From Malachius bipustulatus (Eukaryota > Arthropoda > Insecta > Coleoptera > Melyridae), in NCBI GenBank assembly GCA_910589415.1, contig OU342630.1:48206012-48270011 (forward strand): 64,000 nucleotides of DNA. The letters run 5' to 3'. Every line of letters begins with the position of its first letter. Position 1 is the first letter of the stretch. Positions 546-61,591 of this stretch are shown in pieces. Below the pieces are notes generated by a model that saw only the letters and a list, made by a program, of their open reading frames with translations, searched no databases and was not told where the DNA came from. Both the position numbers and the translations under genes were made by a program.

Positions 546-2405
546 GTTTTCGCTACCACAAAAAAAAAATGCAACGCAAAGGATCCGAAAACAGCTGGTA
601 GGAGGGTTGTGAATGAAAGGTCACTTGATGATTTTATTGCCATGTTGGCTTGTGAGTCGTGGGAGGGTATGTTATGCCGCGACTGATTTCAATATTAAGT
701 TTAATGAATTTTATATCATTTTCCTCTCATGCTACGATAGGGCTTTTCCAATTAGGCAAGTTAGGATTCGTAGTGGCAAGGGTTCAAGGTTTCCGACAAA
801 ACTACGCATGTTGCATGATTTTTTATGTGAAATGTCCGGATTGGCCAAGACAACAAATAATTTAATTATAAAAAATAGATACAGACTTCTTAAAGGGTTG
901 TATGATAAGGAGGCAAGAACAACACGAATTCAAATGAATGACAGAAGAATCCTATTGTCTGGGAACAAGGTGAAGGAGAGCTGGAAGATAATTAACGAGA
1001 AGATAAACAAGGATAAGAAATATCCTACTACAGAACTAAGCGTGGATGATAAAAAGGTGTCGAATCCTGAGGAGGTATGTACTCGTTTTAACAACTATTT
1101 CACCGGGTTTTCTGATGCCAGGACTAAGCCCGATTATGACCGTTTTATTTTGCGGCCAGGGCCTTCCGCTAGCTTTTATATTTTTCCCACTACTCCTCTT
1201 GAGGTGATGGATTTAATAACGCGTACCAGTAAAACAAATTCAGCTGGAAGCGATGATATGTACGGAGGGGTGGTTAGATTTGTTGCGGATGTGCTTTGTG
1301 AACCACTTTCTTACTTGATAAATCAGTCGTTCGCCTTTGGTACGTTTCCAGACTCACTAAAGGTGTCGCGGTGTATTCCTATATATAAGGGCAAGGGGCC
1401 AAGAGACAGCATCGAGAATTATAATAGACCAATTTCTATTCAAACCATATTTGGTAAGATTTTCGAGTTGGCGTTCAAGGATAGGCTTCTTGATTTTTTG
1501 AAAAAATATAGTCTTCTGTCTGAGTGTCAACATGGGTTCACGGAGTCTCGCTCCACAGTCACTGCGGTTTCCGAGGCGATGTCATCGATCTTGTCGTCGC
1601 TAGAGCAGCGCAAACATGTCATTGCTTTCTTTTATGATCTTAGTCGTGCTTTTGACTCTGTTGATCATCAACTACTTGTATTGAAATTATACAACTTGGG
1701 TATTCGAGGAGTACCCAACAAATGGATTGAATCATACTTAAATAATAGGTATCAGCAAGTTACCTTGGGGGACAGTCGCTCGACCGCTGAGGTTGTGAAA
1801 GTTGGAGTACCACAGGGCTCAATTTTGGGCCCCTTGTTATTTGTTTTGTTTGTAGATGATGTCATCGCAAGATGTAGTACCCAAGGTGAGATGGTATTGT
1901 ATGCGGATGACACTAATATAATAGTCTCCGAATCAGATTTGGCTGCAACAATGGAGCGAGGTGTTGCTGCAACGGAGACTTTCAGTGACTGGTGTTTGGA
2001 GAACGGATTGACACTTAACTTAAAGAAAACAAACTGTATGTCCTTTGTCGCGAGCAACCGCAGATTAAACGTAACATCGGCTGTAAGGGTGGGTCGGGAG
2101 ACGATTGAGTGCGCTCGAGCTTTGAAATTCTTGGGTGTGATGTTGGACTCTAGACTCACCTGGAGGGACCACATAGACCAGTTGGGTAGCAAGATGAGTA
2201 CCTTTTGCTACATTCTGAAATGCTTGAGAGGGTCTGTGTCCGAGGAAGTTTTGCTTTTGTTTTACCATGGTCCGGTTCAAGCACTTCTTTCTTATGGATT
2301 GTTGTTTTGGGGATCATCACATTTCAGGAATGCCTTTATCGCACAAAAGAAAGTTATAAGATCATTGACGGGAGCCCCACCTAGAAGCCACTGTCGACCA
2401 CTATT
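546..2405 (+). pseudogene. LINE reverse transcriptase, frameshifted and 3'-truncated
   Basis: From about 690 to 2405 one frame encodes a non-LTR reverse transcriptase. Motifs in order are NYNRPIS (a one-residue insertion in the usual NYRPIS), HGFTESRST, FFYDLSRAFDSVDH (motif A with catalytic D), GVPQGSILGPLLF, YADDTNIIV (catalytic YADD), and LKFLGVMLDSRLTW. The thumb follows, and then similarity stops at 2405, where a non-coding repeat begins whose start recurs at about 4066. The C-terminus and 3' UTR are therefore missing. The in-frame ATG at 613 is not the natural start, since the real polyprotein would run on from the endonuclease fragment. Jockey/CR1-like. Confidence 0.8.
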
Positions 2406-4066
2406 TAAAAAACCTTCTTGCGCATCAATCGCAGAAATAGTGTATTTTTATGCGATTCAATTCTGAATATTTTCACCGCTTTTTAAATTGGCTTTCTGAA
2501 ATTTTCCATAGTCAGGTCATATTAGCGTAGTGGTTTACTGAGAAAATTTCATTTCATTTAGTTTGAAAACGTGCCTTAGAATGGATTTTTAAATTTAACA
2601 AAATTAAAAAAAAAACTGACAAATTTTAAAAAAATTTTCCTTTTCCTGTGTCCGCCACTGGCTAACTTTACTTAAAAAATACTAATCTTTACACTACCTT
2701 TAATAAATTCGCAAAAAGTGAAAGGGGAATTTTGAAAACCAAAAATTTGAAATTTTAGAGGAATAAACATCATGTAAAAATATTCGAATATCTCCGCCAT
2801 TTTTCTTATTTGCTTCTTGAAATTTTTCAGAGTTAGGGGTTATTCGTATAGTTGTCTACTGGAAAAACTTCAGCTCAATTCCTTCAAAAAAGGCTCATAA
2901 ACGGTTATAGAAATTTAGCCATTTTTACCCTTTTCTTACCCACGCCACTGGCTTATTAATAAAAAAATATGCAAATTTTCTTGCATTAACTCAAATTTAG
3001 AATAATTTTCTTCCAATCGTGTTAATTTGGTTTAAATTTGTTTTTCTAACTTGCTTATAGGTGGGTAGGTATTATAGGGGTGCAAAATCTGGCAATTTTT
3101 TCTAAAATTGAAAAGGCCGCCATTTTGAAACTGCTCGATTTTACTCAAATACAGTACCAGACGACTCCTTGCGGCTATCTTTCTCATAAAAAAATTTCAG
3201 ATTGAAAACTGCGACCAGAAACCGTGCCTCATAGACGGTTTTTGTTTTTAATTTGGAGGGACACCCTGTAGAAGTAACGCAGCTTTAGGGAATTTTTTTA
3301 CGAAAATCAAATATCATTTCGAAGTTTCACAAGGGTAAAAAATTTCGTTCACTAATCCTTAAATATGAAGCTACAACAGCGGTTTAAAAATTTTAAAGAA
3401 ATAAACATCATATGAAAAAAATATTAATATCTCCGCCATTTTTCTTATTTACTTCTTGAAACTTTTAAGGGTTTAAGGATATTAGTGTACTTGCCTACTG
3501 TGAAAATTTCAGTTCAATTTCTTTAAAAATGAACTCATAAACGGTTATAGAAATTTAGACATTTTTACCCTTTTCCTACCCACGCCACTGGCTTATGAAT
3601 ATAAATAATGCCAATTTTATTGCTTTAATTCAAATTTCAAATAGTTTTATTCCAATTTTGTTAATTTTATTTGAAAGTTTTATTGCCATCTTGCTCATAC
3701 GGAGACTCAAAAAAAAGCAAATTTTCCAAAAATTCAAATGGCTGCCATTTTGAAACGGCTTGGCCGATTTTGCTCAAGTGCAATACCAGACCACTCCTTG
3801 TAGATATCTTACTCCCACAAAAATTTCAGCCTCCTAGATTCAAAACGGCGACCTGAAATGAGATGACAAAACCCGGATTTCTGGAACTTTGAAGGGACAC
3901 CCTGTAGAAGTGATGGGACTTTTGGAAATTTTTTCAACGAAAATCTAACGTCATTCCAAAGATTCACAAGAATCCAAAATTTCGTTCACTAATCTTGATA
4001 GATAAAGCTACAGGAGCGTTTTGAAAATCGAAATTTCGCGATTTTGGAGAAATATATAAATATATA
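2406..4066. repeat. Non-coding ~635-bp repeat, copy A (about 2.5 monomers)
   Basis: The stretch consists of diverged monomers of about 635 bp. Landmarks recur at that spacing: GGGACACCCTGTAGAAGT at 3257 and 3895, and a block with CTCATAAACGGTTATAG at about 2895 and 3533. No long ORF is present. It starts inside the broken LINE reverse transcriptase at 2406, and its first ~1 kb is repeated nearly unchanged from 4067, so the block has been duplicated as a 1.66-kb unit. No transposase or terminal inverted repeat was seen. Related monomers lie at 17336-18836. Confidence 0.7.
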
Positions 4067-7458: not shown

Positions 7459-7548
7459 ATATATATATATATATATATAGTGAAGGGTGGTAACGGGAAA
7501 AACAGCTTAAGTAATTTTGGGCATTTATTCGAGTGCTCTATTGTTTGT

Positions 7549-7589
7549 ACATCGACGTTTCGGTATAGTACATACCATCTTCAGGATGC
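7549..7589 (-). ncRNA. Hammerhead-ribozyme-like motif, Penelope left end
   Basis: Minus strand: stem I GCATC/GATGT (last pair G.U), core CTGAAGA, stem II GGTA/TACC after one extra T, core GAA, minimal stem III ACGT, then C at the predicted cleavage point. Conserved CUGANGA, GAAA and GUC are all present. The extra U between A9 and stem II and the two-base stem III are unusual, so single-copy cleavage may be weak. Hammerheads are known in the terminal repeats of Penelope-like elements. Confidence 0.6.
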
Positions 7590-8107
7590 TAAAATTTAAT
7601 TACATCTAAAGTTAGAGATGGTCCAGGTTATCATAATTATTGTCTTCCTTACCAAACTGTGAGGATTTCTTAAAGTTAAAACTGGACAAAAAACACAAAG
7701 ATAAAAATACATCAATAGGACAACTACTCTACATTGTTAAAAAAATAAAATCAATACATTATCACTTAGTTATGTTCTACGATTGCTAGCACAAATTTTG
7801 ATTAACTTCAATTTCTTGTTTTGTTGTGAAGGCGGCCATTATGTCTTTCAGTGAGATATTAATGTTTACATTTTTGTTATCAGTTATTTCCTCTTCTTTT
7901 TAATTCAATATTTTTAGTTCTTTAAGAAACAGACAGGTGATTATTTCAGTTTTAATTGATGTTTACGTCTGATGACTGGTGACAGTTTGATTGAAGTTGG
8001 TATTGGTGAGGAGTGAAGTGACAGTGCCAGAGGTGACACGCACAACGAACTCCAGTCATGCTCAGAACGTTGTTAATTATTATTATTAAATTTTGAAAAT
8101 TTATGAG

Positions 8108-8863
8108 TCAGGTGAGCCGAGGGTTGTTATTGGAATTAAGTTTTATCAGGTAGGAATAGATGTTGCTTATTTTTTCTATGTCTGCTCTATGATTCATGGT
8201 GTTTTCTGTTTTTGATATGTGAAACATTTCTAAGAAGCATCTCTTGCGTTGATTAGTTTCAATTTCTAGGATTTTTGAGTTTTGAAAGTCTGCTTCATGA
8301 GAAGTATTGCGACAATGTTCTGCTAATGCGCATTTCTTGTCCGGATTTTTTATGTCGCTCTTGTGTTGTGTAATACGTTTTTTTAAAAGTTGGGATGTTT
8401 GACCTATATAAACCAATTCACAGGCTTCGCATGGAATCTGATATATTACATTCCTCTGTTTTTCACTCGGTATCCTGTCTTTCAGTCCGCTGAACAGTCT
8501 GTCAATTGTGAAGAAATTCTTTTTTGCTATTTTTATATCATCTGTTTTAAGGAGGTTTGTCAGTTTATTCGTGAGATCGTTTATCTGTGGAAGTGAGACG
8601 AATCGTGGTTGGGTAACTGTTGTGTGGTGTCTATTATTTTGGTTTTGTGTGTTTGGCTGCCTTGTTGTGCTATATAGAATTCTGTTTAGTAGGTTTTTGG
8701 GATAGCCATTGGTTTCAAGAATGGATTTTAAGTTTATGAGATTTTTTTGTAACAGGGTAGGATGAGAGATGTTTCTCACTCTCTCTTTCATGTTGCGGAT
8801 TAAATTTATTTTTTGTTGCATGGGGTGGTTTGATAAATAATGAATAAATCTGTTTGATGACAT
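8108..8863 (-). pseudogene. Penelope GIY-YIG domain, inverted duplicate
   Basis: A 251-codon frame identical in translation to the plus-strand C-terminus at 10558-11313. It carries IYQIPCE, LVYIGQT and KRITQHK of the GIY-YIG nuclease. The reverse transcriptase part is missing from this copy, because the inverted repeat stops at 8878, just upstream of the ATG, which is an internal methionine of the full protein. It is a duplicated fragment rather than an independent gene. Confidence 0.85.
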
Positions 8864-8880
8864 GGGTTTTCTATACCATG

Positions 8881-8961
8881 GAATATCCTCCGGTTCCGCC
8901 AGCTTGCTAACTTGATGTTTGTTCTAGCCCAGTAGCAAGCTGGCGGAACCGGATGATATTC
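8881..8961. repeat. Perfectly placed hairpin at the head-to-head junction
   Basis: Arms 8881-8909 and 8933-8961 are inverted copies of 29 bp with one mismatch; the loop is 23 nt. It separates the inverted Penelope fragment from the intact-orientation copy. I saw no hammerhead core in it. Confidence 0.85.
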
Positions 8962-11313
8962 TTGCATCAATGCAACAAATTTGGACTACAACCACCTCAT
9001 ATCACAAACAGTATTAGCAGTCTATTCAACCTCATAACAGAGACCAGAGCAGCACCAAAGGTTATAAAAAAGAACATACAGGTGATAAATAATCTATTAA
9101 AATTTGAGATCAGGTGTACAGTGGAGAAAATTATTGAGTTGGAGAGGGAGTTGTCCAGAGATTGGCAGTTTTTGGAGGACTCTCTTCCCAACCACATCTT
9201 ATATGAATTTAAACGGAGAAATGATGTTGCTTACAACAGAAACTTTCATTTGATCAAACATAAGAACCAAAATAAGTTCAATAATTTACTACAAAATCTA
9301 AACAACAAACTAAAAACCAACGATTCATGGTGTAAAAATGTTAGCAACACTACACTACCCACCAATATTCATAAATTCCTGTCACTAGGTCCAAAATTCA
9401 GTTTAGAGGTACCCAGTCATAACTTTCCAATTCAAAAATTGTTAGCCGATGTTGACGATATAATAAACAAACACCCCAACCACGAAAACAAAGATCTTCT
9501 ACGAGCACAGTCCACCCATCTCATTACCAACTATTATATAAACTCACAACCTAATCATAACAAGTTTCTTTTCCAACTATTCATAGAAACAAAAACGTTC
9601 CTGAAAAATCATCCTGACCTCATAGTAACCCAGTCAGATAAGGGAAACGTCACAGTGATTATGTCCAGACAAGACTATCATAGATTAGCAAACAACATAA
9701 TAGGGGATAATAAATACTATAAACCGCTCACCAGGGATCCAACTTTAACAATACAAAATAAGGTCAACCAAACCATCAAAGACCTATATAACAAAAGATA
9801 CATCAATGAAACTGAGGCAAAATCCCTTTATGAATATAACTCAATTCCTGCCAGATTCTATGGCATGCCCAAAATACACAAGCCAGAATTAAGCCTCAGA
9901 CCGATAGTGTCTTGCATAAATACCCCCACATCCAAAATATCCAAATTTGTAGCCCAAATACTCCAGGCATCCCTTGACAACGAAAACAGATATTTTATCA
10001 GAGATTCTTTCCATTTCTCTGAACAGTTTAACAATTTTCAATTGCCTAAAGACCATATTCTTGTCAGCTTTGACGTCATATCTTTATATACTAATATCCC
10101 CACAGATCTGGTATTAGAAGTTGTAGAAAAAAAGTGGGATACTATAAAAACACATACAAACATACAGAAAACAGATTTCACACAGTTAATAAAATTAATT
10201 TTTGACTCGAACTACTTTTCATTCGACAACAAACTCTATAAACAAACATTCGGCTGTCCAATGGGATCTAGCTTAAGTCCGATAGTAGCCAGAATAGTGA
10301 TGGACCACATATTGGACGAGATTTGTGACTCACTCCCATTCCAACTACCCTTTATAAAAAAAATACGTGGATGACATCATAACAGCGGTTCCCAAAGATC
10401 AAATAGAGTCCACATTAGACTATTTCAATCGACATAATGAACATAACATATCCAGTTCACTAAGGAAACAGAGATTAACAACTCCATACCATTCCTTGAC
10501 ACCAAAATAATTAGATTACCTAATGATCAAATAATACTTGATTGGTATAGAAAACCCATGTCATCAAACAGATTTATTCATTATTTATCAAACCACCCCA
10601 TGCAACAAAAAATAAATTTAATCCGCAACATGAAAGAGAGAGTGAGAAACATCTCTCATCCTACCCTGTTACAAAAAAATCTCATAAACTTAAAATCCAT
10701 TCTTGAAACCAATGGCTATCCCAAAAACCTACTAAACAGAATTCTATATAGCACAACAAGGCAGCCAAACACACAAAACCAAAATAATAGACACCACACA
10801 ACAGTTACCCAACCACGATTCGTCTCACTTCCACAGATAAACGATCTCACGAATAAACTGACAAACCTCCTTAAAACAGATGATATAAAAATAGCAAAAA
10901 AGAATTTCTTCACAATTGACAGACTGTTCAGCGGACTGAAAGACAGGATACCGAGTGAAAAACAGAGGAATGTAATATATCAGATTCCATGCGAAGCCTG
11001 TGAATTGGTTTATATAGGTCAAACATCCCAACTTTTAAAAAAACGTATTACACAACACAAGAGCGACATAAAAAATCCGGACAAGAAATGCGCATTAGCA
11101 GAACATTGTCGCAATACTTCTCATGAAGCAGACTTTCAAAACTCAAAAATCCTAGAAATTGAAACTAATCAACGCAAGAGATGCTTCTTAGAAATGTTTC
11201 ACATATCAAAAACAGAAAACACCATGAATCATAGAGCAGACATAGAAAAAATAAGCAACATCTATTCCTACCTGATAAAACTTAATTCCAATAACAACCC
11301 TCGGCTCACCTGA
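8953..11313 (+). pseudogene. Penelope-like RT / GIY-YIG endonuclease, two frameshifts
   Basis: This is the replication protein of a Penelope-like element; it reverse-transcribes element RNA and cleaves target DNA. Residues 1-473 (8953-10374) hold the Penelope RT, with SDKGNVTVI, RFYGMPKIHK, LRPIVSC, SFDVISLYTNIP (catalytic D) and GCPMGSSLSP. The catalytic YVDD lies directly after an A8 run at 10358-10365; one extra A throws it out of frame. A second, compensating indel near 10460 (before QFTKET) brings the frame back, so 10558-11313 continues in the original frame with DWYRKP, then GIY-YIG motifs IYQIPCE, LVYIGQT, the R of KRITQHK and a downstream E. No other stops are seen, so decay is slight. 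The start at 8953 is the first in-frame ATG, 3' of the hairpin. Confidence 0.85.
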
Positions 11314-11829
11314 CTCATAAATTTTCAAAATTTAATAATAATAATTAACAACGTTCTGAGCATGACTGGAGTTCGTTGTGCGTGTCACCTCTGGCACTGT
11401 CACTTCACTCCTCACCAATACCAACTTCAATCAAACTGTCACCAGTCATCAGACGTAAACATCAATTAAAACTGAAATAATCACCTGTCTGTTTCTTAAA
11501 GAACTAAAAATATTGAATTAAAAAGAAGAGGAAATAACTGATAACAAAAATGTAAACATTAATATCTCACTGAAAGACATAATGGCCGCCTTCACAACAA
11601 AACAAGAAATTGAAGTTAATCAAAATTTGTGCTAGCAATCTAGAACATAACTAAGTGATAATGTATTGATTTTATTTTTTTAACAATGTAGAGTAGTTGT
11701 CCTATTGATGTATTTTTATCTTTGTGTTTTTTGTCCAGTTTTAACTTAAGAAATACTCACAGTTTGGTAAGGAAGACAATAATTATGATAACCTGGACCA
11801 TCTCTAACTTTAGATGTAATTAAATTTTA

Positions 11830-11870
11830 GCATCCTGAAGATGGTATGTACTATCCCGAAACGTCGATGT
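11830..11870 (+). ncRNA. Hammerhead-ribozyme-like motif, Penelope right end
   Basis: Plus-strand counterpart of 7549-7589: stem I 11830-11834 with 11866-11870, CTGAAGA 11835-11841, GAA 11858-11860, ACGT 11861-11864, predicted cleavage after C11865. Stem II is one pair weaker than in the left copy (TATCCC replaces TATACC). Confidence 0.55.
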
Positions 11871-11971
11871 ACAAACAATAGAGCACTCGAATAAATGCCC
11901 AAAATTACTTAAGCTGTTTTTCCCGTTACCACCCTTCACTATTGGTAATCAAAATACAGCGTGAATTCTTG

Positions 11972-11973
<2 letters not shown>

Positions 11974-12043
<70 letters not shown>
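11974..12043. repeat. (AT)n microsatellite
   Basis: About 35 AT units between the Penelope end and the first fold-back element. Confidence 0.95.
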
Positions 12044-18854: not shown

Positions 18855-19448
18855 TATATAAATACTTAGAAAATATTTAACAGAGCCGTTGTATGAAAAC
18901 AAACCTTAATAATAATAACGGTCCGTCTGTGATTTCGAAGGATTATTTGGAAGGCTCTGATTTGTAGACTGCCTGAGAGCTCGAAAGAGCCAAGCCCGTT
19001 ATTATTATTAAGGTTTGTTTTCATACAACGGCTCGTTAAATATTTTCTAAGTATTTATACTCTCATGGGCAATGATGGTGACATCTGCTGGCTGCGCAAC
19101 ATAGCCAGACGAGAAGTCGAGCCTCATAGCATATAAAACTGCACGAGGCCACTTTCTCTGAATGGCGCGAGTTGCCGTCAGGTCGGTAGTTCCGTCATCC
19201 ATCGGTAGATGTAGTTAGGTTCTCCGGGTCACTGTGAACCGGATGAACGATTTTAATAACACCTCGAGACCGATGGCAGTCTGCAATTCATCCTCCAGAT
19301 GTATCTATTCGATATATCACACTGATGAGCTCATAATAAGAGCGAAACGGTCCGTCTGTGATTTCGAAGGATTATTTGGAAGGCTCTGATTTGTAGACTG
19401 CCTGAGAGCTCGAAAGAGCCAAGCCCGTTATTATTATTAAGGTTTGTT

Positions 19449-19449
<1 letters not shown>
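18855..19449 (+). mobile_element. Hammerhead-bearing element with 430-bp period
   Basis: Sequence starting at 18921 recurs at 19351, exactly 430 bp on, so the locus is one full monomer plus about 99 bp of a second. A full hammerhead motif spans the junction into the second copy. The left end, 18855-18920, is an inverted copy of 18989-19052. No ORF of note. Tandem, non-coding, ribozyme-bearing monomers of a few hundred bases match the description of retrozymes; this may be a decayed one. Confidence 0.6.
19316..19362 (+). ncRNA. Type I hammerhead ribozyme motif
   Basis: Stem I ATCACA (19316-19321) pairs with TGTGAT (19357-19362), 6 bp. Core CTGATGA 19322-19328. Stem II GCTC/GAGC with a 7-nt loop. 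Core GAA 19344-19346. Stem III ACG/CGT with a 3-nt loop. GTC ends at 19356, the predicted cleavage point. Every conserved core base is present. Confidence 0.85.
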
Positions 19450-20627: not shown

Positions 20628-20745
20628 GATGTTCAAACAATAGAGCACTCAAATAAATGTCCACATTTACTTAAGCTATTTTTCCCGTTACTTCCCTTTA
20701 CTATTGGTAATCACAGTAGACAGCGTTAATTCTAGAAAAAATATG
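20628..20745 (+). mobile_element. Penelope terminal fragment
   Basis: Matches 11866-11980 (CAAACAATAGAGCACTC, CTTAAGCT, TTTTTCCCGTTAC, TATTGGTAATCA). Similarity begins at GATGT, the first base after the predicted hammerhead cleavage site of the Penelope element. Confidence 0.75.
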
Positions 20746-25784: not shown

Positions 25785-28700
25785 GTAATTATTAACAAAA
25801 AATCGCTTAAGCGGATTAAAACGATTGCAAAATCAGAGACACTGTTATTTTATGTTTAATTCTTTTTGAGGAATTATCAAAATCGAACGTACATCATATT
25901 TATTAAATTGAAACTAGTTTGTAATAAACATTATTAGAATACGAACACAAATAATATAAATCAATTTAAGTTTTACAGAGTGACAAGAATAATACTCAGA
26001 ATAAAATTCTATCGCAATAAGGAAAAGCAAAAACTAGCATCTTCCAGTGGGTGGGTAGGTAGGTACATCAATATAAGGGTGAATCATTTGTATCGAATAA
26101 ATTCATTTTGCTCGCTTAATATTTGTAGAACTAAAAAAACCCTATATAGGTCAATTTTTTAATTCGATTATTAGAAACGGTCACAGAAATCTGTCCTTTA
26201 TTGAGCCTTTAAAATACCCGCCGCTACATATTCTTATGGTATTCTCTGGCAATAATTACTGTCATTATTCCTTTAAATTTTGTTTCTGTTGACTTTTTTT
26301 TAAATCTCGCATAACAAAAATTATAATATCTTATTTTATAGAGGTCGCTCTCTTTCTCTCAAGTGGGTTCAGAGGTAAATATTTATTTATGTTAACTTCG
26401 AAATTCGAAGCAAAATAAAAATATAAAATTGGTTGGAGCTTTCCTTTTCTTTAACTTTGTAACTTAAACAAACGGTCAGTTAACAAAATTACCTATTATA
26501 GTGCTCTGAATACAACTATCTACAACCTAATAATTTAAAATCAATAACAATAAATAATTTATTATTTTATCTTCGATCAGCAAAAGTCCTTCTACATTTC
26601 TCAAGCCAATTTTCTCTAACTCCCTTCCAATTATCTCACCAGCTATCGTTGCACACCTTTCCTTATTATTCAATACAATTTACTTATTAAAACTTCTTTT
26701 CAACTCTTATAGCACATCTTCAGTAACTTTACCTCTTCACTTCTTCAAAACAGCCAAATTCTGTTCCACTTCTAGCTGTTGTTAAAACCTCCTTTAATTT
26801 CAATATTTCCTTTTTGTTGCTTATCTTATTCCCTGGTTTTCATAAAATTGTCATTTCTCCGTCTATTGCTGCGTCTTTCTGCTCTTACAAATACTTATTT
26901 CACACTTTTTAAATTTCTTTCTCACATCCCTCTCAAATTTCCCCCCTTTTAACAATCCAAAATATTTTTCTCTTAACATTTCCAATTTCTTATTCTAAAT
27001 ACATTTTTATTAACAAAAAGATGAACGACATATCGTAAAACGATACGTCATTCATTGATTTCATGCTGTGAGTCAGGGGTGGAAATTGTAGACACGTGTT
27101 TCGTCCTAATTGGGACTCTTCAGTACAATGTATCTTGCTAACACACAGCACAATTTAGTCACTTAATAGTGAGCAAAATGATAAAAATAAATAAAAATAA
27201 AATAGCACGGTGGGTTCGGCTTTCGCCATAGGATGCAACCCCAGGCAGCTAAAACGCATGCCAACAACTGAGTGCAGTGCCTCCCGATGTGCGTAAAGGT
27301 AGGATAGGCCTACTTCCAAAGTTTAACAAAAAGATGAACGACATATCGTAAAACGATACGTCATTCATTGATTTCATGCTGTGAGTCAGGGGTGGAAATT
27401 GTTAAACTTTGGAAGTAGGCCTATCCTACCTTTACGCACATCGGGAGGCACTGCACTCAGTTGTTGGCATGCGTTTTAGCTGCCTGGGGTTGCATCCTAT
27501 GGCGAAAGCCGAACCCACCGTGCTATTTTATTTTTATTTATTTTTATCATTTTGCTCACTATTAAGTGACTAAATTGTGCTGTGTGTTAGCAAGATACAT
27601 TGTACTGAAGAGTCCCAATTAGGACGAAACACGTGTCTACAATTTCCACCCCTGACTCACAGCATGAAATCAATGAATGACGTATCGTTTTACGATATGT
27701 CGTTCATCTTTTTGTTAAACTTTGGAAGTAGGCCTATCCTACCTTTACGCACATCGGGAGGCACTGCACTCAGTTGTTGGCATGCGTTTTAGCTGCCTGG
27801 GGTTGCATCCTATGGCGAAAGCCGAACCCACCGTGCTATTTTATTTTTATTTATTTTTATCATTTTGCTCACTATTAAGTGACTAAATTGTGCTGTGTGT
27901 TAGCAGGATACATTGTACTGAAGAGTCCCAATTAGGACGAAACACGTGTCTACAATTTCCACCCCTGACTCACAGCATGAAATCAATGAATGACGTATCG
28001 TTTTACGATATGTCGTTCATCTTTTTGTTAAACTTTGGAAGTAAGCCTATCCTACCTTTACGCACATCGGGAGGCACTGCACTCAGTTGTTGGCATGCGT
28101 TTTAGCTGCCTGGGGTTGCATCCTATGGCGAAAGCCGAACCCACCGTGCTATTTTATTTTTATTTATTTTTATCATTTTGCTCACTATTAAGTGACTAAA
28201 TTGTGCTGTGTGTTAGCAAGATACATTGTACTGAAGAGTCCCAATTAGGACGAAACACGTGTCTACAATTTCCACCCCTGACTCACAGCATGAAATCAAT
28301 GAATGACGTATCGTTTTACGATATGTCGTTCATCTTTTTGTTAAACTTTGGAAGTAGGCCTATCCTACCTTTACGCACATCGGGAGGCACTGCACTCAGT
28401 TGTTGGCATGCGTTTTAGCTGCCTGGGGTTGCATCCTATGGCGAAAGCCGAACCCACCGTGCTATTTTATTTTTATTTATTTTTATCATTTTGCTCACTA
28501 TTAAGTGACTAAATTGTGCTGTGTGTTAGCAAGATACATTGTACTGAAGAGTCCCAATTAGGACGAAACACGTGTCTACAATTTCCACCCCTGACTCACA
28601 GCATGAAATCAATGAATGACGTATCGTTTTACGATATGTCGTTCATCTTTTTGTTAAACTTTGGAAGTAGGCCTATCCTACCTTTACGCACATCGGGAGG

Positions 28701-31700
28701 CACTGCACTCAGTTGTTGGCATGCGTTTTAGCTGCCTGGGGTTGCATCCTATGGCGAAAGCCGAACCCACCGTGCTATTTTATTTTTATTTATTTTTATC
28801 ATTTTGCTCACTATTAAGTGACTAAATTGTGCTGTGTGTTAGCAGGATACATTGTACTGAAGAGTCCCAATTAGGACGAAACACGTGTCTACAATTTCCA
28901 CCCCTGACTCACAGCATGAAATCAATGAATGACGTATCGTTTTACGATATGTCGTTCATCTTTTTGTTAAACTTTGGAAGTAAGCCTATCCTACCTTTAC
29001 GCACATCGGGAGGCACTGCACTCAGTTGTTGGCATGCGTTTTAGCTGCCTGGGGTTGCATCCTATGGCGAAAGCCGAACCCACCGTGCTATTTTATTTTT
29101 ATTTATTTTTATCATTTTGCTCACTATTAAGTGACTAAATTGTGCTGTGTGTTAGCAAGATACATTGTACTGAAGAGTCCCAATTAGGACGAAACACGTG
29201 TCTACAATTTCCACCCCTGACTCACAGCATGAAATCAATGAATGACGTATCGTTTTACGATATGTCGTTCATCTTTTTGTTAAACTTTGGAAGTAGGCCT
29301 ATCCTACCTTTACGCACATCGGGAGGCACTGCACTCAGTTGTTGGCATGCGTTTTAGCTGCCTGGGGTTGCATCCTATGGCGAAAGCCGAACCCACCGTG
29401 CTATTTTATTTTTATTTATTTTTATCATTTTGCTCACTATTAAGTGACTAAATTGTGCTGTGTGTTAGCAAGATACATTGTACTGAAGAGTCCCAATTAG
29501 GACGAAACACGTGTCTACAATTTCCACCCCTGACTCACAGCATGAAATCAATGAATGACGTATCGTTTTACGATATGTCGTTCATCTTTTTGTTAAACTT
29601 TGGAAGTAGGCCTATCCTACCTTTACGCACATCGGGAGGCACTGCACTCAGTTGTTGGCATGCGTTTTAGCTGCCTGGGGTTGCATCCTATGGCGAAAGC
29701 CGAACCCACCGTGCTATTTTATTTTTATTTATTTTTATCATTTTGCTCACTATTAAGTGACTAAATTGTGCTGTGTGTTAGCAAGATACATTGTACTGAA
29801 GAGTTCCAATTAGGACGAAACACGTGTCTACAATTTCCACCCCTGACTCACAGCATGAAATCAATGAATGACGTATCGTTTTACGATATGTCGTTCATCT
29901 TTTTGTTAAACTTTGGAAGTAGGCCTATCCTACCTTTACGCACATCGGGAGGCACTGCACTCAGTTGTTGGCATGCATTTTAGCTGCCTGGGGTTGCATC
30001 CTATGGCGAAAGCCGAACCCACCGTGCTATTTTATTTTTATTTATTTTTAACATTTTTATTGTTACTCATTATTATAAATTTATAATTATTACACTTTTA
30101 AAGTTTATTTAAACCTGAAATTATTATTACAATTTTCCTAAACACATTTTCCACGACAATATTTTTATTATAATATCTTTCTTTCAGATATGAGCCCTAG
30201 CATTTCCCTGGATTTGGCAGCCTTCACTACTGTTGTCAGTGTTATCTGTCTGCGAATTATGTTTCTGAGAAACTTGAGAAAGACAGTTACAGATATATCT
30301 CAATTCAAAAAGCGTGATAACGACCACAGAGTAAATTATCCTGTGTTAATGAATCTAATTAGATATGGTCTGATCTGCGGTATATCAATATGTACCTTGT
30401 TCAAGACCTGGGACCAAAAAGCATGTAGGCAAAGAATGGGGAATAATTCTCTCGATTCCTGCGGTTTCCTTGTTCCCATTTACTTACCTTTCAATTATGA
30501 TCAATTTCCACTGAATAAATTAATATTGGTATATCAGATGATCTCAGTCTATTACTTTCTTATGATGTTGATAAATATGGGCATAATGATGCTTTACTTC
30601 TTGGAAAAAGTTATAAATGGCGCAGTAAATGTGACTGCGGACATTCGAAAAATCGATGATTTCTTGCACGATCAACAGGAAGTAGAAAAAATTTTATTAC
30701 GCTCGATAAAAAGATTTATAACCATAACAGAGTAAGTATACTATAAATATTATTTCAGGTTGTTAATAAGACAAGAAAATTAACCAGCATCAAAAACTAT
30801 ACACAAATGATTTTATCGAATGTGGAAGAACTACAAGACCACAAAAAGGTCTTTAAAGAATTAAACTCAATCAAACAAAATTGTACCCATAGCAATAGCA
30901 ATTTGTCAATATCAGTCTTTGTTACAAATGAAATTATTTGATTTGTGAAATAAAACATAAAAATAAATGAAAAAAAGTTGATCTATGATTTTGAAATGTG
31001 ATATAGGGACCTAAATGTTGATTCTGAACAACTTTTTCAAAAAACATTTTGTCGTATTTGCCACATAAAAGGCACTTTACTCAACAGAAAAACCGGTTTC
31101 TTGGAAATTTCCAAGGCATGCTTGATTTTTCCAAACTAAAATTTTGTTAGATATTATTCTTTAGCCAAGCAGGGCAGAACTCCAAAAAATTAAAATTAAA
31201 ATCAAAAAATTTTTGTCTTTAATAAGAGTCTATCCGGGGACACACGGTATATGTTCTTATAAAGACCGCAAAGCCTAATCCGGTTGTACATATCTAAGCC
31301 TAATCCGAATATACAGGGTGTCCCGTATCGTTATGTTCAAATTTTTTGAGCATATAGTAGGCTTAATTTTGAGCCCAAAAAACCCAAAAGTGGCAGGTCT
31401 ATCTTTATTCGTTACGAAGTTACAGGCCTAAGAAAAATATGACTAGTAAATAACAAAGATTCAACTTTGAAAACCACAGAACCACATGTGTTGTGGTGTA
31501 GGCTAATAATTTATTGTTGTGGTAACGACATGAGTAAATGTCACCGAAATAAACGTTAGAAGAGGTTCTCCTGCTCATGGCATTTGGATTCAAATAAATG
31601 GGACACCAGCATATTTCGGAATTGGCGTTTGTAACTAAATTCCAAAAAGCAATTATTATTGGATCGTATTCAGCATGCTGGTCAAGAGATCGGTCGCGAA

Positions 31701-34700
31701 AAAAGACGAGAAATTAGGACTGTTACTTCTGCAATAGGCCTCCGAGCACAAGTTTGTATGCAGCAAGGAATAGGACATTTTTAACACATGATAAACTAAA
31801 GATGTGGTCAATAAAATAAGCTTTATGTGATTTTCAAAGTTAAATCTGGTATTTACTAGACATTATTTTCTTAGGCCTCTAATTTCGTAACGAATGCAGA
31901 TAGACCTGCCACTTTTGGGTTTTTTTAGACTTAGATATAAGCCTACTATATGCTCACAAAATTTGAACATAACGATACGGGACACCCTGTATAATTGTTC
32001 TTATAAAAATATAAGTCAGTAACAAATAATTTCATACATTTCATAAATTTAAAGAGAATTTTAAAATGCCGGAACTAGATCCAAAAAACGAAAAATCGGA
32101 AGTCTATACCATATTGCAGCAACGAGGATCTAAATCCAAAAACTTTAATTAAAAAAGTTTCGTCTTGACGAAATCTAAGTACATGACCATTAAATGTCTA
32201 ATTTGAGTTGATACAGCCTGTATAGTGAAACTTTTTGATTTCAGTGCCTGTACAAAACTTAATGCTTCAACAAGCTCTATATTATATGTGCATTACTTAT
32301 CCAATCAAATAACAATGGCCATATTCATTTTTAATATAATCGTGGTAAGTAAAACTATTAGATACATAAGTATAAATTGTTTTCTATGAAATTTTACAAT
32401 CAATATAAGGCTAACAAGGACGAGCAGAAAAATGGAGCCATCCGAAATAAATATTTCAAAAATTACGTACTGCTTTCCTCATTCCTCACTTGCTCGTAAC
32501 AGTCGATATATTTCAGAACTGGTTACATAAATACGGCGAGTTTCTGAACACCCAACGTTGAACAACCAGTCAACAATATCAGCTGTCAATCATTTAGTTG
32601 TTGAGTTGAATTTTTGAGTTGATGAAGCCATTTTACAAACGATCTGTTAAGACAATAATTGACACGACGTATATTTTATTGATAAAAGTATATTATGATA
32701 AGTTGGTTATAAAATAAATGTCAATAAGGCGATATCCTCTGTCGTTCAAAAGATGATCCAGAGTTAGTTGATTTCGTTGAGTGAACATTGACCTCACAAG
32801 TGGCTTAGAAACATGACAGTTGACTGCTAACATTAATTTTATAAACGGTATGTTGGCATTGTTGTTCAGTTGTTTGGTATTTAAAAACTCCATATCCATG
32901 ATCTATTACTGTCAACTGTACCTATTTCTTCACAGAAATAGAAAATAATCATATATGTTGTCAGGCTTATATTATTACCATAGAGAAAAACTTATTAAAA
33001 TTTATATTAAGTTGTATCTGATTATAAGGGCTCTTTAAGTTAACTAGTTAACTGGCAGATTCCTATGGTCATTTCAAAAGATGAAGGTATCGAGTCTAAG
33101 TGGAAATTTTTTAAATTTATCTATTCTTCACGTGGGTGTACCTAATTACAAAAATGTTAACAAAAGTAATGTGACGTCGATATTGGCTTTAAAAATGCTC
33201 ACAAAAAACTGCCCGTTAGCCTAAAGGAGCGTTTTCACCAAGCGCGCAAAACGTTTGCAATTGTTAGCAAATGTTTGCAATCGCAATATTTGTTTGGTGG
33301 AGACGCGCATTCGCCAACATTTGCAATCATTTGTCCGTGTTCCGAGCGTTGTCGGTACATCAAAGGGATTTGTTGCTTGTGCGTGCGCGAAGTATTTTCA
33401 GTGTAGACGGGCAGGGAGTGTTCGCAGGAATCGCAGGGAATCAGAGCAGTGTTGCTTGTTGTTTTCCAGCAACTGCGACGTGTCTACCAAATTAACTATA
33501 ACTATAACCAAAAAATGGGATGTCCAAAATCTACGAGTTCTCTTTTTATTATTCAATTAAAACAGTCATAATTGTTACGTTGGTTACTTTTATGGAGCTT
33601 TATTAAAAAATGCAGTCATGATTATTAACATATAATCTAATAATAATAAGTATAACAATCGTAATAATGAAATGATAATATATAAATTAATTAGCAGACA
33701 TCTTGTGCTCGTCTATCTGACCTACTGCCCATGTCCCTGATGACATCCTTCAGTGACATTGTGAAGGTTGACATTCTGGCATATCAGAATACCACAGAGA
33801 ATGCTATAGGCAGCTCAACATACTACAACATGCCCCCTTTTAAAGAAAAGCATGACTATAAAACATATACCCCATTTTAAGCAAAATAAGATTACAAACT
33901 TCGATTACATCTGTAAATATAACAAATCAAACTCAGGCATGCTGAAATGTTGAAAACCTAACATTATACAAATCAAATGAAATCAAAATTTAATCAAAAC
34001 TAAACCGTCTAGGTTTAATCACTGTCCTTCCTGACCTTGTTCTATATGAGTCATACTTAGACTTTGTTTCGTCTTTATTACTTGAGACATTTGGACTATT
34101 GATACCCTTGAAGTCTCCCTCAAATGACACTCGTTTGCTGGGTGATAACAATGACTGTTTTGGTGAGGAGCTAGGCACATCTACTAAATGCTCTGGGCTG
34201 TTTAGTGATTTATTTAATACAGTCGACCTATCATGCTGTGTCGAATCATTACTATTAGGCGTTTTCATTAAATGTTGACGATTCCGTCGGTAGGTAACTC
34301 CTTCCGGCGTACGGACTAAGAAAAATCTTGGGGACGATCCCTGACCAACTACCACGGCGGGCGACCAAAATGACATTGGTGTCTTCTTATACATAACGAA
34401 GTCACCGACTTGTACTGGTGGCAGTGATTTCACCTTCTTGTCATAGTTTCGTTTCATCTTCACAATACCTTTCTTCACACGATTTTCATGCGAAGTGTAA
34501 TCAACAATACTTGGCATTAAGCTTTCCTCAGTTATAGGCAATTTGGTTCGTAAGTTACGTGACATCAATAACTGTGCAGGAGACTTACCGCTAGCTTGTG
34601 GAGAATTACGATATTGCAACAATGCAATATAAGGATCTGCATCAGATTCCTCACACTTTTTTAGTATTTTTTTTATTATGCCAATTGACCTTTCTACCAA

Positions 34701-37700
34701 CCCATTAGACTTTGGATAGTTGGGACTGACTGAATTAAAATTAATACCCCAGTCTTCAAGGAAGTTTAAGAATTCCTTAGAAGTGAAAGGAGGTCCATTA
34801 TCAGAGACCATTTCTAGGGGAATCCCGTGTCTAGCAAATATGGACTTCAATTTAATTACCAACTGACTAGCAGACGTTCCTTGATTCATAAGACTCATTT
34901 CAACATACTTAGAGAAATAATCTACTACTAATAGATAGACTTTATTATTATATTGGAAAAAATCTGCTGCGACTTTTTGCCATGGGAATTTGGCTACCTC
35001 ATGAGGCAAGAGAGGTTCAGGTGAACTCGAGTTTCGAAATTTAAGACAGGTCATACATTGTTCAACCCTATTCTTTATGTCTACATTCATGTTTGGCCAG
35101 TAGACAATGCCTCGTGCCAGTTTTTGGCATTTGTCCACGCCTTGATGACCTTCATGTATGTAATCTAACATCTGAGGACGTAAACTCTCCGGTATTACCA
35201 CATACTGATTTTTTAATAACAAACCATTAATAGTATGAAGATCATGATGAATATTAAAATATGGCTTCACTTGCATTTCAAGAGAGTTTTTGGAATTTGG
35301 CCATCCCTGTTGATAATAATTAATTACTTTGGACAAGACCGGATCGTTGCTAGTGGCTTCTTGTATTAGACGAAGTTTTTTATCCGCAATTGACAAATTT
35401 GAGACAATCAAATTACAGTGAATTTGCAACTCCTCATCCAAGGATTCATCGACATCTGTAGGACTCGTATCATTGACGGGCGCTCGGGATAAAAAATCAG
35501 CAACATACAGATACTTTCCCGGTCTATATTCTACATTAAGATCATAAGCTTGAAGTATCATCATCATACGTTGTAAGCGTGCGGGAACTTCAGACAATGG
35601 TTTCATAAATAATGTAACTAACGGCTTGTGATCGGTTTCGACTCGAACTTTTCTTCCATAGACATAATTATGGAAACGCTGACATCCAAACTGAATAGCA
35701 TAAAGCTCCCTTTCAATTTGGGCGTATCTCGTTTGTGTGTCTGTTAATGACTTAGATGCATAAGCAACTGGTCTGTTACCATGCAAGATAACAGCACCGA
35801 CTGCATTTTTAGAACTGTCGACTGACAGGGTCAGGGGTAAGTTGGGATCAAAATGTACTAGAACTGGTGCTTGACTAATAGCTTCTTTAAGTGCATCAAA
35901 TTCGCTTTGATGTTCTGCGGACCAGTTCCATAAAACATTCTTACGAGTTAACGTTCTCAGGTTAGTTGTCTTATCAGACAAATTATCTATATATGATCCT
36001 AAATATGTAATCATACCTAAGAATCGTTTTAATTCTGTGACATAATTAGGAATAGACATCTGACAAATGGCATTGACTTTACTAGTATCAGGAAACATGC
36101 CGTTGGCATTGAAAATGTGACCCAGATATTTAACTTCTGATAATAAAAATTTGCACGTTGTCGCATTGAATTTTAAATTTACCTCGCGAGCTCTTTTCAA
36201 AACTTTCTGTAAAGTTTTTGTGTGACTTTCCATTGTCATACTATATATTAAAATATCATCTAGGTAAACTAGAACTCCTGGAATGTCCGAGAATATTTCA
36301 ATAATTTTTCTATGAAATAATTCGGGTGCACAACTGACGCCATAAGGTAGTCTCATAAACCGATACCGACCAAACGGTGTATTAAATGTACATAAACGCG
36401 AGCTTTCATCATCTAACTGCATCATCCAAAATCCCGACTGAGCATCCAGTGTTGAAAAATATTTTGCACCTGACAGTTTAGACCTAATTGACTCTACCGT
36501 AGGTAATGGAAAATGACAGCGTTTAATAGCTTGATTGAGATTTCTCGGATCTAAGCAAACACGGAGTGAACGATCTTTTTTTTCTACTAGGACAACAGAA
36601 TTTACCCATTCACTAGGTTCAGTGATTTTAATAATGACGTTTAATTTTTCCATGCGTTCGAGTTCCTTTTTATACCGATCCATTAATGAAATTGGAACCC
36701 TACGCTGAGCATCGATCTTAGGAACCGCATCAGACTTGACAGATATGTGACATGTGCCCGGTAGACAGCCAAGCCCCTCAAAAACATCAGCAAAACTTTT
36801 GAGAAGAGTATCATTTGATAGAGTACATACCTTTTTTATAATTTGCAGATCATGACAGGTAGGCAAACCCAGAATGGTATGACATTCAATATTAGCAAGA
36901 ACAAACTCAATCAGGACAGGCGACTTGTCTCCAATAATACATTCTAGCTTACAGCATCCTTCAATAGGTACAAGGTTACCTGAAAATGATGTTAATTTAA
37001 TACTACTAGTTCTATCAACACTGATATTTTTAAAATTGAGACTTTTGAAAAGTTTATAGCTCATTACATTAGCTTGAGCTCCCGTATCTAAATGACATCG
37101 TACAGACTTGTTCTGAATACTAACATCTACTGTCCAAATATTATTTACACTATTTATAAATACAGACCCTATAAATAAATTATCACTGTTATTGCCTCTT
37201 GAATTCTGAACATCTACCACATCTACATGTTTATTCCTAGGGCAACACACTGCATAGTGATTCCATTTTTTACAGTTTCTACATTGGACTCCGACGGCTG
37301 GACATTTGGATCTGTGAACTTGATTGCAGTTTTTACACGGCTGCAGATTTTTACTACCATTCATGTTGGTCTGGTATCTTCCATTATGCGGCGTCTGTGA
37401 TCTTGCTCTATTAAAGCGAGAGCTGGACTTTTGGCGAAACGTACCACTTGACGGTTCCCTATGACGACTTGGACGACCATTGTATTTTTGCACCTGTTCA
37501 ATGACTGCTCCTCTGTCTATGCCTTCGGCTTGCTGGTGTGTGATTTCAATACTCTTCGCTATTTTTACAGCCTCCTCTAGTTTCAAGTCAGACTTCTGAA
37601 GTTCTTTCATATTTCTGTTCGACGACTTCAACCCAACTATGAACATGTCTCTTACTAAATCTTCACGGAGGTCACCCAACTCACAGGAGAGACTCAGGTT

Positions 37701-40700
37701 TTTGAGTGCCGTTACAAAATCTTCGATAGACTCTTCAGGCTTCTGCGACCTTGTAAGAAATTTATGCCTTTCTACTGTAATGTTCTTTTTCGGTTTACAA
37801 TGCTCTTCAAACTTGTCAACTAGCTCTTTATAAGGAATTATATCCATGTCTATATTAAAAGAATCGAACACATGTACTCCTTCTTGTCCGATGTAGTGCA
37901 GAAACATTGCCACTTTGCGATCATTAGGCTGGTTTTCATAACCACCTGCTCTCATAAAGATTTTAAAATTCTGGTACCATAAGGTCCAATTGTTTGCGAC
38001 GTTACCCTGCAGGCTCAGGGATGGAACCGCATTACCCGTCTTCGCACTCGACATGACTTCCGGATGAGGATCACTGTTGACTACTACTCCTCCTGCTGTA
38101 TCTTCAGGTTTAGGTTTCTCCTCCGCAGCTTTTTTATCCGCTTCTGTTTTCGTCATCGGCCACAGGGATAGTTTATCACACCAGAACTATAAGACTTTCA
38201 CCGACCGCGTGACAGACAAAAATGACTTCTTCCTTCGACTTTTAAATATTAACCCATAAATATGTTCTTAACACCTGACACCATGTTACGTTGGTTACTT
38301 TTATGGAGCTTTATTAAAAAATGCAGTCATGATTATTAACATATAATCTAATAATAATAGGTATAACAATCGTAATAATGAAATGATAATATATAAATTA
38401 ATTAGCAGACATCTTGTGCTCGTCTATCTGACCTACTGCCCATGTCCCTGATGACATCCTTCAGTGACATTGTGAAGGTTGACATTCTGGCATATCAGAA
38501 TACCACAGAGAATGCTATAGGCAGCTCAACATACTACAACAATAATTATGAAAGATGCGGCACTAACAATACATTTTCTTTTCGGAGCCATTTTTGCTCG
38601 GAACATGAACAAATGATTGCTAATAACGTACCAGGTGTCTGTGAATATTCAGTGGAGACACTTTAATTGCAAACATTTGGAAACATTCGCAAACATTTGC
38701 GAACGTTTGATAACAATGGGTACGTTCACCTGACGTCAACTGTTGAGTTGTTGAGGTAGCGCTTGCGTTCAGACATACCGCTCACTTACAACCGTTGCTA
38801 AACTGTTGAGTATTCTTGTGAGCGAAAATATTTCACGCTCAGCACAGTCAACGTGTATGTTGCCGACATGCGCAAAGTGGGAAGTAAAAGTTGCAAGTAA
38901 GAATGCTCCTGATACAATCACCGACAAATAAATGATATAATTATTTCTATGAACTTGAATTGTATCCAGAAACATGTAACATATCTCTCGATCTCAACAA
39001 TGCGTTCAGACTATTTCCAACATGTTGCAACAACTAACACTCAACCGTTTTGCGCTGCTATTCAACAGTTGACGTCAGGTGAACGTAGTCATTGATTTTT
39101 TTGTGAAAACGCACCTTAATGAGCCTTTATATTGGCTGTAAGACACACAACTCAAAATATCATCAATTCCTTGATAACGGTGAAGGTGGATTAATTATAC
39201 AGGGTGAGTTTTTTTCAATTTTTAGTACAGGGATCTCGTAAACTACTGCAGTTAGAGGAACGGTTAAATGGGGAAAGAAGCGCAGTTTTATGAGCTTAAT
39301 TCGAAACAGCTTTTATTTTTTTGAAAATCTCCATGGCTTCCTAGATATTTAGCAAAAAGTAAATTCCGCGGATTTCTTTACACCGAGATAGCAGTCTTAT
39401 TATTGGGATTAGAGAAAAATCGTAAAGGAAAACCTTTTAGACGATTTTATAGACAACAAAACGGCGTTACAATTTTTTTTATTTGTTGTGTCATTTTCGA
39501 GCTATGACGTAAACTTGTGTTTTTTTAAATGTAAGTCATAGTTGGCTATGACATCATTCGATATGTCTTTTTTTTCTAAATACAACGATATAAAACTCGA
39601 TATCGTTTTTTCGGGAAATAAAAAAGTTAGGACGGTTTTTAATTTTATTTCCTCAACTTAACTAGGCGGCCATGTAAATAACTGATAGACCTCAGTTAAA
39701 TTTGAAATTATACATAGATAATTTTGCAAAATAATTTGTAATCCTTTATGCAAACAATTATTATACTTAATTAACTACAAATTTTCTAATAGCCATCTAG
39801 TAACTCTAGAAAATATTATGAAACATTTGAATATAAAAGGTTAACGACGATAAAAATATCTGCGAAAATATTGTTCCGCAGCCCTGACAGCATTCTTTTG
39901 ACACTGAATATAACATTCTATCATATCACGCTTCTCTTGGTTGGAAAACTCCATACTAGTAATTCACCTTGCAGGTTATACGATTTAAGAACTTCTGCAA
40001 AACCTGACTTCATACTTAAAGTTCAATGGAAATTATAAGCCTCTAAGTAACTAACTGTCAAATTTTATAGTTTCACTGTTTCTGTTGCTGTTGCTAAGCA
40101 ACCGCCACATTTTGATATGAATATTTAGTCTAAAGTTGTTCTACAGCGTAAGTAGGTATTGTTACAAGATTTTCGAAAAATTAGAATTAAAATTAATTTT
40201 TTTTTAAAGTTCTCGAAAACTAGCTATCCCGTTGAATTCATTATAAGATTTTCAATTCAAAATTAACTATTAAATTCAGCGCCTATACCACGTATTTGAG
40301 GAAATAAAATTAAAAACCGTCCTAACTTTTTTATTTCCCGAAAAACCGATATCGAGTTTTATATCGTTGTATTTAGAAAAAAAAAAACATATCGAATGAT
40401 GTCATAGCCAACTATGACTTACATTTAAAAAAACACAAGTTTACGTCATAGCTCGAAAATGACTCAACAAATAAAAAAAATTGTAACGCCGTTTTATTGT
40501 CTATAAAATCGTCTAAAAGGTTTTCCTTTACGATTTTTCTCTAATCCCAATAATAAGACTGCTATCTCGGTGTAAAGAAATCCGCGGAATTTACTTTTTG
40601 CTAAATATCTAGGAAGCCATGGAGATTTTCAAAAAAACAAAAGCTGTTTCGAATTAAGCTTATAAAACTGCACTTCTTTCCCCATTTAACCGTTCCTCTA

Positions 40701-61000: not shown

Positions 61001-61591
61001 ATCAAAACTGGTCTGGGAATGCCTGCAAGACCTCATTGACTTAGCCAGGTGTAACGTGGTGACACTAGTTTGGGTTCCGGGTCACCGTGGGACGCCTGGT
61101 AATGAGGCTGCAGATCAACTAGCCAAGAAAGGCGCTGGGATAAACTACACTGGGCCCGAACCAGTGTTGGCATCCCAAAGAACACTGTACGCGGGGCGGT
61201 GGCTCAGTGGATAAGAACACAACATAGAGCACACTGGAACCGTATAACAGGAAACAAACATGGTAAGGTGATGATCAAGGAGCCCTCTCAAAACCTTGCC
61301 AGACAGATACTGCAACTAAACAGAATGCAGATCAGAACGGTGGTGGGTCTTCTCACAGGACACTGCCACCTAAGAGTACACCTACATAAACTGGGGATAT
61401 ACAGAGAAGACCCAATTTGTAGACTCTGCAATGAAGAAGACGAGACAGCTTCTCATGTGATATTCGAGTGTCCAGCACTCGCACGAACGCGCTATGCGGT
61501 TCTGGGACCAATCAGTCCCGGGAGCCATCTGGCGGAAAAAACCTTGGTTAGCGGGCTGCTAAACCTTGTCAAAGGAACGGAGCTCTTCTAA
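57966..61591 (+). pseudogene. LOA-like ORF2: endonuclease, RT, RNase H; one frameshift
   Basis: The enzyme for target-primed reverse transcription. Endonuclease residues 1-220: LQINLQHSK, LIQEPWL, GVDANSHH and SDHRYIQLEI. RT residues about 430-720: YKSPGPDGIYPALL, AYRPISLTSF, QHAFQPGKSCESAL, GAFLDIEGAFDNT (motif A), GCPQGGVLSPLLW and GYADDIVIL. RNase H about 930-1060: VWYTDGSK, AEINAIRL, SDSQASL and NEAADQLAKK. The first frame ends at 61214; a 1-base shift near 61190-61200 passes into the frame ending at 61591, which carries CRLCNEEDETASHVIFEC. Apart from that indel the frame is clean. Confidence 0.9.

Follow-up and report, generated by a model that had tools for sequence, protein, structure and literature searches.

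How does a tandem array of small non-coding ribozyme units, one of them inverted, come to stand in a beetle genome? The question is raised by a stretch of 64,000 nucleotides from Malachius bipustulatus (Coleoptera, Melyridae; assembly GCA_910589415.1, contig OU342630.1, positions 48,206,012 to 48,270,011), here called the window. An Rfam covariance scan of the whole window found, at 27010-30050, nine type I hammerheads set in units of 313 bp; eight of them are on the plus strand and one is on the minus strand. This array is a genuine new member of the animal retrozymes, the class without long terminal repeats (non-LTR), and the record of its insertion is the new part. Most probably, the array is one insertion of such a retrozyme, in which an enzyme of the Penelope-like element (PLE) type would have copied a small RNA circle from two fixed sites, A and B, onto both strands of the target.

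Monomer positions are counted from the first base 3′ of the predicted hammerhead cut. On this numbering the array resolves into two arms between short direct duplications:

27001..27011, no strand: left copy of the 11-bp target-site duplication, ACATTTTTATT, by sequence match
27010..27402, minus strand: A-started arm, monomer 81 to 2 (1.26 units, 393 bp), exact ends; the TT at its outer end (27010) also belongs to the duplication
27399..27402, no strand: head-to-head arm junction with four common bases, TTGT, from the arm overlap
27399..30050, plus strand: B-started arm, monomer 75 to 222 (8.5 units), exact ends; outer end at 30050
30051..30061, no strand: right copy of the 11-bp target-site duplication, by sequence match

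Between randomly drawn border pairs, an 11-bp match arose in 29 of 100,000 trials over the window and in 4 of 100,000 with local flanks only. Given this rarity and the presence of the string on both borders, the 3-kb structure was most likely inserted as a whole, inverted arm included. An earlier note on this DNA, a model's reading of the letters, had recognised the array correctly; it had missed the flanking duplication and had taken the inverted monomer as a detail, although it is a mark of the insertion mechanism.

The search for further copies that the earlier note had proposed returned hundreds from the genome of 544 Mb in 52 contigs, with at least 310 matches to one unit (39 of 901 candidates scored). 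From the matches listed, 29 loci (given L numbers below) were fetched in addition to the window. Sixteen of these 30 (L020-L032 and L034-L036) have a common A-side flank and represent one two-armed insertion amplified inside another repeat, some copies now being without the B arm; they were collapsed to one insertion (L022) before every count, leaving 15 insertions not chosen by an end, which form the unselected set. Eight more came from searches with end strings and six complete ones from a further end search, giving 29 distinct insertions, 14 of which were thus found through one of their ends; L061, L066 and L067, each incomplete at an end, and L069, which gave no match, were dropped from the counts. 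Comparison of up to 500 bp of flank among all 29 revealed six similar pairs (70-94%), and since these differ in their distance from the junction, they reflect host repeats in common and not common insertions. Beside L022 stands a copy related to the host repeat of L070 that lacks the insertion; its alignments to the left and right flanks of L070 share an overlap of 9 bases, which is what an empty site would show.

The outer ends of the arms, corresponding to RNA 3′ ends, were found only at A (monomer 80-86) or B (220-229). All 46 ends of the 29 insertions follow this pattern, as do all 23 ends of the unselected set. Reading by eye supplied the B ends of L009 and L070; that of the window, at 222 by exact match, extends to 229 in a gapped alignment. 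Wherever there is a second arm that measures at least about 20 nt (the shortest one counted, in L070, was read by eye), the two arms stand head to head, one starting from A and the other from B. All 17 two-armed insertions obey this rule, among them the eight of the unselected set, and under free choice of site the chance of such an outcome would be about 8 in a million. Twelve insertions are one-armed, seven from A and five from B, and one of them, L037, carries about 9 additional bases resembling an A arm; L062 shows one extra internal rearrangement. In the predicted structure of the circle, A and B are the two most open stretches and lie in one multiloop, the domain between them being folded away.

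The inner ends are scattered over the monomer, none of them inside the A or B range. The two sides of an inner junction may be far apart on the monomer, as in L010 (259/131) and L018 (254/15), or nearly palindromic, as in L017 (132/129), L022 (6/2) and L056 (192/189), and some one-armed insertions (L012, L033, L037) have extra bases at their inner end. The hammerhead cut as a general inner end, a candidate prompted by the window, whose A arm runs to monomer 2, and by the L022 group, was ruled out by the scatter elsewhere; an inner end at the cut would possibly represent a minor route from a linear template. Nor do arms stop as a rule at the start of the other arm, B arms ending at 70-75 in only three of 17 cases (window, L009, L065); the A arms of L050 and L051, which end at 207 and 209, are suggestive only.

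Both borders carry a common string of 11-15 bp in 25 of the 29 insertions and in 13 of 15 in the unselected set (the duplications of L048, L049 and L057 were read by eye). In the control, consisting of mismatched left and right flanks of the unselected set, 1 of 210 pairs had such a string. The targets are AT-rich. Dispersed copies with duplications longer than 4 bp, as found in animal non-LTR retrozymes, argue for a mobile element rather than a plain satellite.

Individual variants run through entire insertions. In L017, 221A runs through one arm (eight of eight units) and through the other (seven of seven covered units), and in L018 an inserted G occurs in all covered units of both arms; L037 has one deletion and one insertion in 10 of 10 units, L019 has 117C in five units and 221A in four, and L012 has 221A in 18 units, yet not in all. 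Such locus-specific variants would fit many rounds of copying on one circle. The circle is also favoured by the A/B rule, because a 313-nt circle holds one A and one B, and a multimer holds many of each.

The hammerheads themselves all exceed the gathering score of the Rfam family Hammerhead_1, eight with 53.5 bits (E 4e-11) and one with 50.1 bits, and those of the plus strand span 27599 to 29834 at a spacing of 313 bases:

27085..27129, minus strand: type I hammerhead, 53.5 bits
27599..27643, plus strand: type I hammerhead, 53.5 bits, predicted cut 27637/27638
27673..27707, plus strand: conserved hairpin, monomer 36-70, shown in the first plus unit, from fold prediction
27912..27956, plus strand: type I hammerhead, 53.5 bits
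28225..28269, plus strand: type I hammerhead, 53.5 bits
28538..28582, plus strand: type I hammerhead, 53.5 bits
28851..28895, plus strand: type I hammerhead, 53.5 bits
29164..29208, plus strand: type I hammerhead, 53.5 bits
29477..29521, plus strand: type I hammerhead, 53.5 bits
29790..29834, plus strand: type I hammerhead with the single change 290 C to T, 50.1 bits

The complete hammerhead in each of eight plus and one inverted monomers, as claimed in the earlier note, is thus borne out by the scan it had proposed; core and three stems agree with its description, and its cleavage point after C27637 coincides with the predicted cut C27637^T27638. Its uniform monomers reappear in Tandem Repeats Finder as a period of 313 with 8.5 copies and 99% matches, and its second conserved hairpin is strongly predicted at monomer 36-70, directly before site A, the linear fold of the unit having a z of -4.67. 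The absence of coding content noted there is matched by an array without any open reading frame (ORF) of at least 120 codons. The unit, with a GC content of 0.41, is non-coding and accordingly no PLE itself, for which a reverse transcriptase with GIY-YIG would be expected. Helix III is the palindrome ACACGTGT, which, as read from the sequence, could form two pairs with an ACGU loop or pair between molecules; dimeric hammerhead action is reported for amphibian retrozymes (PMC7229834; citations here and below refer to the available portions of the texts). No LTR layout was seen in the array ends and units read, where no search aimed at a primer-binding site or polypurine tract was made, and scans of a viral contig collection gave no relatives. 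The assignment to the retrozyme kind made in the earlier note is supported by sequence-level features of animal non-LTR retrozymes, namely the type I hammerheads in tandem units, the unit length, the low GC content, the lack of coding content and the PLEs of the genome, together with the dispersed copies and their duplications. To the right of the array lies an open frame of 197 codons (30142-30735), which may resemble insect chemoreceptors, although it has no Pfam domain and a protein search gave no homologue in confirmation.

A second, unrelated retrozyme-like repeat with 429-bp units adjoins a TA repeat at 18857-19449 of the window. Its hammerhead (19316-19362) reaches 31.7 bits (E 0.0002), under the Rfam gathering score of 34. 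Here, too, the layout is head to head, with a 65-bp minus arm and a 533-bp plus arm, and elsewhere in the genome there are at least 43 matches and arrays of up to ten units. Ten end stretches of this family were fetched and nine matched; eight outer ends lie at 83-92 or 132, and that of L075 at 22. Three two-armed copies had both ends read, and two of them, the window copy and C3, use one of each site. Several loci of the family sit in TA repeats with a common flank and may not be independent.

The B-end string also matched a tandem PLE with 2988-bp units and an 852-amino acid ORF, as at L038 (G000 C3:31406500-31416400). The ORF contains a reverse transcriptase according to Pfam and a KYIGQT motif by eye, with no Pfam match to GIY-YIG at E 0.001. 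Eleven two-armed copies, picked for closely spaced plus/minus pairs, are all head to head, and 10 of 11 have one end at each of two sites (682-692 and 726-731); all 11 have duplications of 12-14 bp, matching the length found for the retrozyme. A hammerhead-like motif, read by eye as were all PLE hammerheads, would be cut at 612/613, which places the first end site 70-80 nt downstream, compared with 80-86 nt between the retrozyme cut and its site A. Rfam gave no hammerhead match in five PLE loci (L038-L041, L045) at E up to 0.05, and none in the PLE of the window. In L038 the motif reads GTGATCA in place of the usual CTGATGA, a paired C3G/G8C change of the kind tested in another PLE (PMC11167929).

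The window PLE (7477-11976, its right end near 11976 read by eye) encodes a reverse transcriptase and GIY-YIG, both recognised by Pfam. Its sense copy is preceded by an inverted arm, a partial copy at 7477-8878 corresponding to 10543-11942, and minimal hammerhead motifs were seen at 7550-7589 (minus strand) and 11830-11869 (plus strand), the minus arm ending 77 nt after the motif cut. An 86-bp fragment of this PLE (20628-20713, 90% identity) begins, at its 5′ end, exactly at the nucleotide following the predicted PLE hammerhead cut (11866), which gives it the look of a copied cleavage product. Among PLE relatives, the named hosts are beetles, sawflies, an ant and a psyllid. The other retroelement frames of the window (613-2466, 33990-38186 and 57942-61214) encode two reverse transcriptases of the LINE (long interspersed nuclear element) type and one long polyprotein that combines domains of reverse transcriptase, RNase H and integrase.

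The fixed outer ends, the one-of-each rule, the duplications and the variants running through an insertion are read directly from the sequence; that the array is transcribed, that its RNA cleaves itself and forms circles, and which enzyme moves it is what we infer. By analogy with published retrozymes, the hammerheads would cut array transcripts into 313-nt units, and a host ligase would close these to circles. A Penelope-type reverse transcriptase/endonuclease would then make staggered cuts, about 12 bp apart, in the two strands of AT-rich DNA. Both cut 3′ ends would serve as primers on the same RNA, with synthesis that would start at A for one strand and at B for the other and could circle the template many times. 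Eventually, the two cDNA (complementary DNA) ends would join, often across a few common bases, and the outcome would be two head-to-head tandem arms between 11-15-bp duplications. For the purified Anolis PLE, internal start at two RNA sites, extension of both strands and a preference for AT-rich DNA are reported, and the numbers given there place the start 85-92 nt downstream of its own hammerhead cut (PMC11167929). A further proposal, about which we are evenly divided, is that animal retrozymes are PLE satellites, with a two-headed PLE complex loading one monomer circle at two ports and copying it simultaneously onto both strands of a staggered cut. With a single A and a single B in a monomer circle, only A/B insertions would result. 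Because copying starts about 80 nt 3′ of the cut, hammerhead cutting and circle closure would present a complete unit to the enzyme in retrozymes, and perhaps in PLEs as well.

Other routes to the same structure are conceivable. Ordinary target priming by a LINE might have moved a multimeric linear transcript, with twin priming as the source of the inverted piece. LINE-type reverse transcriptases are present in the window, and taken alone the window array fits a linear RNA with its 5′ end at most 1 nt from the hammerhead cut, the A arm running to 2 and the B arm to 75, adjoining A; the L022 group (2/6) likewise ends near the cut. Twin priming, however, fixes one end only, whereas both outer ends are fixed and always different in 17 of 17 insertions; moreover, most inner ends are scattered over the monomer and there is no poly-A end. 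Since a multimer has many A and B sites, same-site pairs would be expected to be common, and we regard this route as improbable. Self-priming of one cDNA on an antisense template, put forward for the palindromic inverted junctions of bdelloid Penelope (PMC3846280), could account for the head-to-head layout, and some retrozyme junctions (L017, L022, L056) are nearly palindromic; it leaves the constant difference of the two outer ends unexplained, while other junctions are far apart on the monomer (L010, L018), so that it appears quite improbable. For a plain satellite amplified by unequal exchange, with the hammerhead as a passenger, the tandem array itself could be quoted, and a 939-bp recurrence of linked variants in the window, described below, resembles local duplication after insertion. 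Such a satellite would end at random phase and without duplication; the copies studied here lie at dispersed loci, end at two fixed phases, mostly carry duplications and have locus variants common to opposite arms. The mismatched-flank control already disfavours this explanation, which we consider hardly credible.

Several observations weigh against PLE-type copying of a circle as set out above. Uniform units could also arise if one long linear RNA were read from a homogeneous donor array. Four of the 29 insertions are without a clear duplication of at least 11 bp (8 bp in L015, 7 in L019 and L052, none clear in L051). In the window array, 269G and 94A are linked and recur together at an interval of exactly 939 bp, or three units (27906, 28044, 28845, 28983), and are not continued elsewhere in the array, which suggests either that the template was mixed or that a local duplication followed later. 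One of the three two-armed copies of the second family, the C2 locus, has both of its ends at 132, contrary to a strict A/B rule, and in the 2988-bp PLE the copy L042 ends at 684 and 703, the latter instead of 726-731. Spacing differs as well, with 142 nt between A and B in the retrozyme and about 40 nt between the PLE sites. A (TTTTTGTTA) and B (TTTATTTTTA) are unlike the end sites of this PLE, the sole one examined in many copies; because other PLEs were not searched, the claim is lowered for the 2988-bp PLE only; no PLE carrying the A and B strings came to light. Finally, hammerhead cleavage was unnecessary for the Anolis PLE in vitro (PMC11167929).

Animal non-LTR retrozymes are described as non-coding tandem units of 150-450 bp with a type I hammerhead, low GC content and target-site duplications longer than 4 bp, in genomes that contain PLEs; their hosts include insects, circles are proposed as templates, and PLEs are named as a strong candidate for mobilisation (PMC7229834, Cervera and de la Pena 2020). 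A review states that no conserved motif reveals the mobilising element (PMC7761336), a 2024 review names LINEs or PLEs (PMC11722881), and both the mover and the route by which tandem copies of circles enter the genome are left open (PMC7229834; PMC7761336). The present family shares the type I hammerhead, tandem units (170-400 nt in PMC7229834), low GC content, lack of coding capacity, long duplications and PLEs in the genome; it differs from that description in its head-to-head arms and fixed pair of start sites, and expression and circles were demonstrated there. With the Anolis PAc PLE it has in common that both target strands would be cut and extended, two internal RNA start sites, AT-rich targets and an upstream hammerhead (PMC11167929). 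Bdelloid Penelope also shows head-to-head repeats, and its 31-bp tail, optional on one of the two inverted repeats, provides a similar asymmetry, its duplications being 8-10 bp compared with 11-15 bp here (PMC3846280). Unlike PLEs, which encode their enzyme, the 313-nt retrozyme codes for nothing, and its sites lie 142 nt apart. Plant LTR retrozymes are likewise non-coding and non-autonomous and have hammerhead-processed circular RNA, which is presumed here, but differ in their type III hammerhead, LTRs, primer-binding site, 4-bp duplications and Gypsy machinery (PMC7229834). The amphibian hammerhead satellite resembles the array in its tandem units of about 330 bp, type I hammerhead and weak palindromic helix III, a likeness drawn from the description, without comparison of insertion ends, and the sequences are unrelated as far as known (PMC7229834). 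The open-licence literature searched held no description of an A/B two-armed layout for retrozymes and no paper joining a hammerhead ribozyme with twin priming; the available portion of PMC12910113 contains nothing on insertion structure.

Summarizing, the scars of insertion tie this retrozyme to PLE-type insertion, with two fixed starts, one per strand, head-to-head arms and duplications of equal length. The insertion record provides testable support for two-site, two-strand priming of the PLE type, with predictions that are cheap and precise, and it suggests a reason why hammerheads are found in both PLEs and retrozymes.

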